Part shown: positions 5,891 through 11,795 of the stretch, in pieces
How positions within the stretch are numbered: the stretch's first letter is position 1
Layout of the letters: each line of letters starts with the position of its first letter
IMG/VR virus record: IMGVR_UViG_3300025810_000033
Span: 1 to 34,162 of that record
Direction: 5' to 3' (one strand)
Source: a virus
Length of the DNA stretch: 34,162 nucleotides
Program-made: the position numbers and the translations under genes
The notes under the pieces: generated by a model
What the model saw: the letters and a program-made list of their open reading frames with translations, nothing else
Database searches by the model: none
What the model was told of the DNA's origin: nothing

Positions 5891-7543
5891 ATGACAAATG
5901 GATATTTAGGTAACGCAAACCTAAAACCTGCTGGTGTAAAAATTGACTTTACAAAAGAGCAGATAGAAGAATATGTTAAATGTGCAAAAGATCCTGCGTA
6001 CTTTATTCAAAAATATATTAAGGTAGTTTCCTTGGATAAAGGACTTGTTCCTTTTGATTTGTATGATTATCAAAAAGACATCGTAGAAAAGGTTCACAAT
6101 AATCGTTTCGTGATTGCAAAACTTCCTCGGCAGAGTGGAAAATCTACAACAATTGTTGCTTATATTCTTCATTATATTTTGTTCAATCAAAGCATGAATG
6201 TTGCAATTCTAGCCAATAAGCAAAGCACATCCCGAGAGATTCTATATCGTCTAAAATTAGCATATGAGTACTTACCACTCTGGTTACAGCAGGGTATTGT
6301 AGAATGGAATAAAGGATCTATAGAACTAGAGAATGGTTCAAAAATTGTCGCATCATCTACTTCGGCATCTGCTATTCGTGGTGGTTCGTTTAACATGATT
6401 TTCCTTGACGAGTTCGCCCATGTTCCTCAAAATATTGCAGAAGAATTTTTCAGTTCAGTATATCCAACCATTACCTCTGGTACTTCTACAAAGGTTCTGA
6501 TGGTTTCAACCCCCAATGGATTGAACATGTTCTACACTTATTGGGTGGGAGCAACTCGTCCTGATACTGATCCACAAAGAAACGAATATGTTCCTATTGA
6601 AGTCCACTGGAGTCAAGTTCCTTTATATTCCGGCGGACCTCTGCGTGATGATAAGTGGAAAGAAGAAACCATAAGAAATACTAGCGAACAGCAGTTTCAG
6701 TCTGAGTTCGAGTGTGATTTTGTAGGTTCTTCGAATACTCTGATCGCGTCCTATAAATTAAAGCAATTGTTTTATTCTAAACCAATAAAAGAAACACCAG
6801 ATGGTCTTAAAATATATGAAGAACCGAAAGAGGATCATGTTTATTTTATGTGTGTTGATGTTGCCAGGGGGCAAGGAAAAGACAACAGTGCATTTACAAT
6901 AATTGACACAAGTCAAATGCCATATAAAATTGTTGCGACTTTTTATAATAACACAATTCCTCCACTTCTTTTCCCCACCACAATAAACACTATTGCAAAA
7001 AATTATAACGATGCATGGATTTTAATAGAAATTAATGACATAGGCGCACAAATAGCAGATATTTTACATGCTGATCTAGAAAATGAATTTATTTTGAGTG
7101 TAAATAGTAAAGGAAGAAGTGGACAAGTTTTATCGGGAGGTTTTTCCGGTCAAGGAAAAACTGCTCTTGGTGTAAAAACTACATTACCAATAAAAAGAGT
7201 AGGATGTTCGGTGCTAAAGAGTCTTATTGAAGAGGACAAGATTATTATTGAAGATGAAAATATTATAGATGAACTAATATCATTCATATCTAAAAGAACA
7301 TCTTACCAAGCAGATGACGGACATCACGACGATCTTGTAATGACACTTGTTATTTTCTGTTGGGCATCTAGACAGGAGTACTTCAAAGAATTAACAGGAA
7401 CTGATATCCGTCGAGGAATATATCAGAAAAAGATAGAAGAACTAGAAAATAGTTATGTTCCATTTGGCTTTATTTTAGATGGGCTACATACTGAGAGCGA
7501 ATGGGATGGCCAAGATCGCTGGTACGGAGAAGATAGTCAATGA
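5891..7543 (+). CDS. 17: Terminase large subunit gp17-like (ATPase and nuclease)
   Basis: This is the packaging motor ATPase with a C-terminal headful nuclease. I chose ATG 5891 (550 aa) over the in-frame TTG at 5885. ATPase motifs: Walker [11 protein letters not shown] (K84), Walker [11 protein letters not shown] (D173/E174), and coupling motif VSTPNGLN. The RNase H-like nuclease shows [10 protein letters not shown] (D323), IEINDIG (E380/D383) and GHHDDLVM (D480/D481), an acidic set as in T4 gp17 (610 aa). No key residue is missing. gp16 lies immediately upstream, and its last four bases overlap the next gene (ATGA at 7540-7543). Confidence 0.96.
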
Positions 7544-10539: not shown

Positions 10540-11795
10540 TGGCCATCGTTCAATTTAATTTTTGTGATGTCAATTCTGTTCCACATATGACAAGGCTTAA
10601 TTATAGAAATTCTGTCAATACAGTGTTTAACGGATCTGCAAACGATCCTGATTTCGTAGATGAGAATCCAAGCCTTTATTCAAATGGAAGAATATTTAGT
10701 TGCAATGAAGTGGGAGACTATCTTCAATACACCCCTAGAATGGTTGATTATTATAGTCTTTCTATTCCTGTACCTAGTCCGTATGTCACAAATACTTTCG
10801 GGCCCGATCTACCATCGGATGATGTTCCAGACGGATTTATACTGCCTGCATATGAAATTAAGAAATTTTTCGCATATAGATGGCAACTTCCTGATTTTAT
10901 GCAAGCATTGCATTACGAAAATATGATTCGGGGACAGGATTACATAGGAATTACCAGTGGCTCTCCTTTGAGTTTTGATTGGAGTGATGCATACACCACG
11001 GGAATTACAATGTTTGTAAAACAAATTCTTTCAGGACCATCTGCTGGTGCAGGTAGTGGTTCTTCTGATTTTGCAGATCCAGTAGCGAATTCAAATGCAA
11101 CCAGTAGCAGATTAAATTCCTCTGGTGTCATAAATACAGATCAATCCATAGAAAGTTCATTTTTATCAACATCCTCTGGTGAATTTGAATTTGCTGCTGC
11201 TGGTGCAAAATATTTTCATAGATTTGAAAACGATTCATATCTAGTCCCAACCCAAATTTCAGTAGATGCATCTGGATGCATATCCAGGTCTATTAGAGAT
11301 GGAAGGTTTAAATCTCCAGCAGGACAAGATAGGGGAGAAATCAAAAAAGCAGAGTATGTTAAACCGATACCTACTAATGATAAAATAGAAGATTTATATA
11401 ATAATAGAATCAATTTTGTTAAATATGAAGAGGATCTAGAAAAGTATATTCTTTTTGGAGACAAAACCAGAAAAGAAGAAACATCAACATTTTCTAGAAT
11501 TAATGTAAGCCTTCTTTTTATAAAACTAAAAAAACTCATAGGAAAAGCAATTCGAGACATTCTTTTCGATCAGAATGACTCGATTACTAGATCTAAAGTT
11601 TCAACAGCAATAGATCAACTCTTAAGAAAGATATCTGCTGATGGCGGTATATCCGAATATCAAATTACATGCGACGAATCCAATAATACTCCAGATATAA
11701 TTGATTCTAATCAACTTATCGTGGATGTTTCGGTAAAACCAACTAAATCAATCAATTTTATAAAGATACGGTTTACCAATACCGAAAACATTTAA
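10539..11795 (+). CDS. C-terminal half of the split tail-sheath paralogue
   Basis: This 418-aa protein has an unrecognised N-terminal ~215 residues ([20 protein letters not shown]...), a Ser/Gly/Ala-rich linker (~165-205), then from residue ~241 a full sheath C-terminal domain parallel to the 11839 protein: D-x-(S/A)-GC-(I/L)-x-R, SPAG-x-x-RG, (L)FGDKT, (F/L)SRINV, R-x-ILF-x-x-ND, and a final block with 26 of 37 identical residues (CDE..NT through KPTKS to IRFTN). This is the domain that forms the inner sheath wall and the inter-subunit arms in known sheaths. A strong GGAGGAGG ribosome site lies in the end of the preceding gene, and TAATG couples the two. It is not a frameshifted fragment: it has its own start, ribosome site and unique N-terminal domain. 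Confidence 0.82.
   Translation: MAIVQFNFCDVNSVPHMTRLNYRNSVNTVFNGSANDPDFVDENPSLYSNGRIFSCNEVGDYLQYTPRMVDYYSLSIPVPSPYVTNTFGPDLPSDDVPDGFILPAYEIKKFFAYRWQLPDFMQALHYENMIRGQDYIGITSGSPLSFDWSDAYTTGITMFVKQILSGPSAGAGSGSSDFADPVANSNATSSRLNSSGVINTDQSIESSFLSTSSGEFEFAAAGAKYFHRFENDSYLVPTQISVDASGCISRSIRDGRFKSPAGQDRGEIKKAEYVKPIPTNDKIEDLYNNRINFVKYEEDLEKYILFGDKTRKEETSTFSRINVSLLFIKLKKLIGKAIRDILFDQNDSITRSKVSTAIDQLLRKISADGGISEYQITCDESNNTPDIIDSNQLIVDVSVKPTKSINFIKIRFTNTENI

Follow-up and report, generated by a model that had tools for sequence, protein, structure and literature searches.

The subunit of a phage tail sheath is, to our knowledge, regarded as a single chain, the two-chain sheath of the type VI system (T6SS) being the known exception among contractile machines. 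In the eCIS, the sheath-type paralogues Afp2-4 occupy specialized positions, for example proximal to the baseplate. A solved eCIS baseplate (6j0n) includes Pvc3, a paralogue of the sheath protein, among its chains. T6SS sheaths consist of TssB/TssC heterodimers, in which TssB supplies the N-terminal arm along with a portion of the central sheet, and the remainder, including the C-terminal handshake, comes from TssC (PMC5807055). Phage PaBG, one of the Lupandier phages, has two virion sheath proteins that are full-length paralogues of ∼58 kDa each (PMC7412058). In a modeling study of 112 sheath proteins, extra domains lie away from the tube and roles in adsorption or stability are suggested for them; a search of its text by terms showed no split phage sheath (PMC9230969). 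The initial annotation of the DNA described below stated that no phage with a two-polypeptide sheath subunit is known to have been described. A split phage sheath was likewise not found in the open-access papers searched, which are only part of the literature, but the statement is narrowed by the two-chain T6SS sheath (PMC5807055) and by the two full-length sheath proteins of PaBG (PMC7412058).

The DNA analyzed here (the window; a stretch of 34,162 nucleotides) contains structural genes from a cluster of T4-like phage type in the order gp13, gp14, gp15, gp16, gp17, A, B, gp18, gp19, gp20, gp21, gp22 and gp23. The closest relative of its portal protein is that of Pelagibacter phage Mosig (53% identity). 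Genes A and B resemble the T4 gp18 family (PF04984/PF17482, PHROG 23) in the homologous N-terminal blocks of A, the C-terminal domain of B and the genomic neighborhood. However, the other complete sheath genes examined encode one chain, whereas A and B make two chains with a total of ∼1,417 residues beside an intact gp18. The two sequences appear to divide gp18 by the same principle of N-terminal arm and C-terminal handshake as TssB/TssC (VipA/VipB, IglA/IglB), a likeness seen here in the sequences alone. They differ from the T6SS pair in being closest to phage gp18, in having their division point within a large insertion that follows the RxDC strand, in coexisting with a normal one-chain sheath and in lying in a phage structural cluster rather than in a T6SS gene cluster. 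TssB and TssC were absent from the PDB profile matches of A and B, which is compatible with a distant relation. The eCIS paralogues (Pvc2/Pvc3, Afp2-4) are comparable in that a second sheath-type protein is built into a specialized place, such as the baseplate-proximal part, but they are single chains without large hypervariable insertions. PaBG likewise has two sheath proteins in one phage, arising through gene duplication (PMC7412058), but neither of them is a half, whereas A lacks the C-terminal domain and B lacks the N-terminal part.

Gene organization

The region around the two genes contains the following features.

5885..7543, + strand: gp17, terminase large subunit, directly upstream of A (Pfam/PHROG matches)
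7540..10539, + strand: gene A, 999 aa; putative N-terminal half of a gp18-like sheath subunit with large insertions (relatives in L001-L004, L037 and L126)
10522..10541, + strand: A/B junction; Shine-Dalgarno-like purine run followed by overlapping stop and start, the overlap conserved as TAATG or TGATG
10539..11795, + strand: gene B, 418 aa; insertion followed by the putative C-terminal half of the sheath subunit (Pfam, profile comparison)
11796..11838, + strand: 43-nt conserved spacer before gp18 (GCTAAATA...CAAGGAGATAAAA), found in all clade members
11839..13104, + strand: gp18 (421 aa), an intact short tail sheath protein (Pfam PF04984 and PF17482, PHROG 23)

The open reading frames of A and B, their lengths and their order between gp17 and the complete 421-aa gp18 agree with the initial annotation. 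The start of A overlaps the stop codon of gp17 (ATGA), and B starts on the last base of the stop codon of A (TAATG), giving the 1-base overlap from which translational coupling had been proposed. GGAG-type sites precede both A and B, in keeping with the proposal, based on this motif, that each gene has a ribosome site of its own. A programmed frameshift fusing A and B was considered and rejected: the frame of B is open for 7–27 codons upstream and no slippery heptamer is found there.

Three further genes lie upstream of gp13 in the window (7–2639 and 2652–3206; 327, 549 and 184 aa). Their PHROG matches are absent or marginal, and their position suggests structural or fiber-related proteins.

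Homology with gp18

Within the window, a search with gp18 (421 aa) as the query matched A at residues ∼198–302 (E = 4e-15) and 1–72 (E = 8e-8), and B at residues 229–416 (45% identity, E = 1e-46). For the profile comparison, the alignments were divided into segments and all pairs were compared by hhalign. The resulting division of A and B is as follows.

7540..7779, + strand: A residues 1–80, N-terminal arm/block, homologous to gp18 1–75 (hhalign E = 1.7e-10)
7780..8133, + strand: A residues 81–198, first insertion, fast-evolving (28–62% identity between relatives)
8134..8448, + strand: A residues 199–303, homologous to gp18 99–190, with RWPxGP, WWxVxNFxxYGG and RxDC (hhalign E = 3e-14)
8449..10536, + strand: A residues 304–999, second insertion, ∼700 aa, unmatched in Pfam, PHROGs and PDB sequences
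10539..11153, + strand: B residues 1–205, insertion with no known match; residues 31–205 most variable (26–54%)
11154..11792, + strand: B residues 206–418, homologous to gp18 205–414, with Phage_sheath_1C and the C-terminal strand (hhalign of B205–418, E = 6e-48)

A and B cover gp18 in a complementary fashion with zero overlap, and in gp18 terms the division point falls in a stretch of ∼15 residues that separates the RxDC strand from the remaining core. The N-terminal part of the core domain is present in A and the gp18-type C-terminal sheath domain in B; the two parts do not share one polypeptide but are encoded by two genes in six contigs. B matches Pfam Phage_sheath_1C (PF17482) with an E-value of 7e-12, above the curated cut-off, and a sequence comparison with the PDB links its C-terminal part to T4 gp18 (E = 5e-34). 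The B proteins compared (5/5) keep 44 of the 62 residues that are invariant among nine gp18 proteins. Gene A gave no Pfam or PHROG match. The earlier proposal that A and B hold complementary parts of one sheath subunit is thus borne out by profile–profile comparison for three segments, and the idea of complementary halves of a second sheath subunit has good support at the sequence level.

Structure prediction with AlphaFold2 was uninformative for A (10-row alignment, mean pLDDT 26.9) and good for B (16 rows) only at residues ∼323–415, within the last ∼95 residues, probably because few relatives of A and B are known. The modeled C-terminal domain of B matches solved sheath proteins by fold with Z-scores of about 9–10, and it also matches T4 gp25 (5iv5, 5iw9) with Z-scores of 7–8.7.

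The insertions account for ∼1,000 of the 1,417 residues of A and B and match nothing known. By hhalign, the segments A78–200, A303–999 and B1–212 matched neither gp18 nor each other. Within the close clade the sheath-homologous blocks are the best-conserved parts (A199–303, 84–91%; B286–418, 86–95%) and the insertions the least conserved (A81–198, 42–62%; B31–205, 49–54%), a pattern that would be predicted if exposed additions had been placed on a core under constraint.

Relatives of the gene pair

The initial annotation proposed a search of marine phage genomes for the same gene pair between gp17 and gp18. A and B were found together in six contigs from different samples, in the same order and with the same 1-base overlap, and in every member with visible neighbors they are flanked by gp17 and gp18 within the late structural cluster. 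Apart from the window, the pair is present in L001, L002, L003 (near-identical to L002), L004 and the much more divergent L037 (A 43% and B 47% identity); partial copies of the pair occur in L011/L014, L012, L016, L034 and L126. A further 80 sheath loci include 63 complete sheath genes, each of which encodes a single chain (395–863 aa), and no fused A–B relative was found among these loci. Named phage genomes yielded zero relatives of A and matched B only through its C-terminal part, and bacterial and archaeal genome contigs yielded no relatives.

In the nearest phages outside the clade (L018, L045, L046 and L075; gp17 52–68% identical), gp17 is followed directly by one sheath gene, so the pair was either gained near the base of the A/B clade or lost elsewhere. 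In the tree, B forms one old, long-branched group, the exact branching of which from gp18 is not fixed.

Two of these outside phages show other peculiarities. In L018 (3820–5195), the short gp18 is followed by three successive gp19-like tail tube genes that are 31–43% identical to the single gp19 of the window, and L046 has two such genes. In L046 (2253–5081), the gp17 frame of 942 aa has two gp17-like parts ∼1 kb apart, for which an intein-like insertion is possible.

Selection and joint exchange

With near-identical pairs left out, dN/dS is 0.19–0.24 for A, 0.15–0.34 for B and 0.17–0.23 for gp18. The values of A and B are comparable with the gp18 range and much higher than those of gp17 and gp15, and both genes are under purifying selection of a strength like that on gp18.

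L001 and L002 are 98.9% identical from gp15 through the larger part of gp17 (window 4712–7000) and 97% identical from codon 286 of B into gp18, but only 57–80% identical over all of A and codons 1–285 of B, where the allele of the window is the one that L001 resembles more. The limitation of this drop to A and the first 285 codons of B indicates that both were replaced together as one cassette, for which the conserved gp17 and sheath C-terminal domain are the likely recombination sites. Joint exchange fits partners that must match; physical linkage and the conserved flanks as recombination sites could partly account for it. The contigs L001, L003, L004, L012 and L014 end within the conserved C-terminal part of B or within gp18. 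This is where the exchanged cassette borders on its flank, and breaks would be expected at this point if strains diverge there in the assembly.

Expression signals

Codon adaptation relative to gp23 and gp19, the latter being poorly separated from several low-copy genes, is 0.54 for A, 0.55 for B and 0.56 for gp17 compared with 0.65 for gp18; copy number can be judged only weakly from codon usage. In every member a conserved box precedes gp18, containing a TAAATA-type motif together with a ribosome-like site that is strong, whereas A and B have neither the spacer nor an upstream box of their own, and the purine-rich ribosome-like site of B ends in the A/B overlap. Since counts of late-promoter motifs in the window are not above chance and CTAAATA is not enriched, the box, which is a motif resemblance, is argued for from its conservation only. 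The codon usage and the missing private box suggest that A and B are expressed at a lower level than gp18. The signs that they may be minor products of coupled translation are weak but concordant.

Proposed role of A and B

The best explanation, with a probability of roughly 0.5 as a whole, is that A and B represent a gp18 paralogue that forms a two-chain subunit in a minor, specialized part of the tail. A gp18-like sheath gene would have been duplicated, have gained large insertions and then have been divided inside one of them, with A and B now made from one message by coupled translation. The N-terminal arm and the first half of the core would come from A, whereas B would contribute the other half of the core with the C-terminal interlocking domain and arm. 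As both arms are kept, the A–B unit could in principle lock into the gp18 lattice, and the low-expression signals suggest that it may fill few positions, for example the first or last ring of six. These positions would display ∼1,000 residues of fast-changing, exchangeable outward domains, which may serve to contact the surface of the host.

Other arrangements were weighed against this one. Pairing of A and B as a split subunit that is interspersed with gp18 over the full length of the tail, giving a decorated co-sheath, is quite unlikely. Retention of both arms would let A–B enter any ring, and the PaBG virion shows that two sheath proteins are possible in a phage (PMC7412058), but the codon use and gene layout suggest less A and B than gp18, and the tail would be heavily burdened if many positions held a unit of ∼1,417 residues. 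It is also unlikely, although not to the same degree, that A and B act apart, with a half-sheath piece serving as a gp18 anchor or assembly factor and B, for example, starting or capping the sheath. The match of the modeled B domain to the sheath initiator gp25 would suit such a role, and strand exchange could allow a half core to complete gp18; however, full sheath proteins match this domain at least as strongly (Z up to 10), B is gp18-like by sequence, and separate action sits poorly with complementary coverage of gp18 and with the exchange of both genes together.

A role outside the virion, as a decoy or regulatory sheath mimic directed against, for example, the tails of other phages or a host type VI system, is improbable. 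Rapid divergence and the confinement of an accessory gene pair to one clade would suit it, but not the constant position in the late structural cluster or the conservation of sheath core residues. The chance of an artefact, or of one gene that mutation or misassembly has disrupted recently, is negligible. Although the contigs come from metagenomes and the B/gp18 border lies close to the ends of several of them, the same split and overlap recur in six contigs down to 43/47% identity and under purifying selection, and the 80 sheath loci provided no fused relative. The recent break envisaged in the initial annotation as a counter-argument is thereby ruled out; the split is old and maintained.

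A specialized sheath section that the putative gp18 paralogue A/B would form, for which the initial annotation gave the baseplate or collar as examples, is plausible as a proposal. A more detailed picture, in which this section would be a heterodimeric phage sheath ring with its subunit divided between two genes, acting as an exchangeable host-facing module and paralleling TssB/TssC by separate origin, is put forward tentatively and is rather doubtful in all its parts together. A lineage with both a normal sheath and a split paralogue would offer a direct test of dividing a sheath subunit that still assembles. Such a lineage further hints at an exchangeable module that diversifies on the sheath itself, while host contact is usually assigned to fibers and the baseplate.

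Other genes in the window

A 255-aa protein (window 26809–27576) that adjoins the gp46/gp47 homologues matches the PHROG family 'threonine dehydratase' (phrog_7093, E = 8e-36), and possibly represents a metabolic gene or a misnamed family. The C-terminal part of a 542-aa protein (window 27516–29144) is weakly similar to DNA methyltransferase families (phrog_67, phrog_498).
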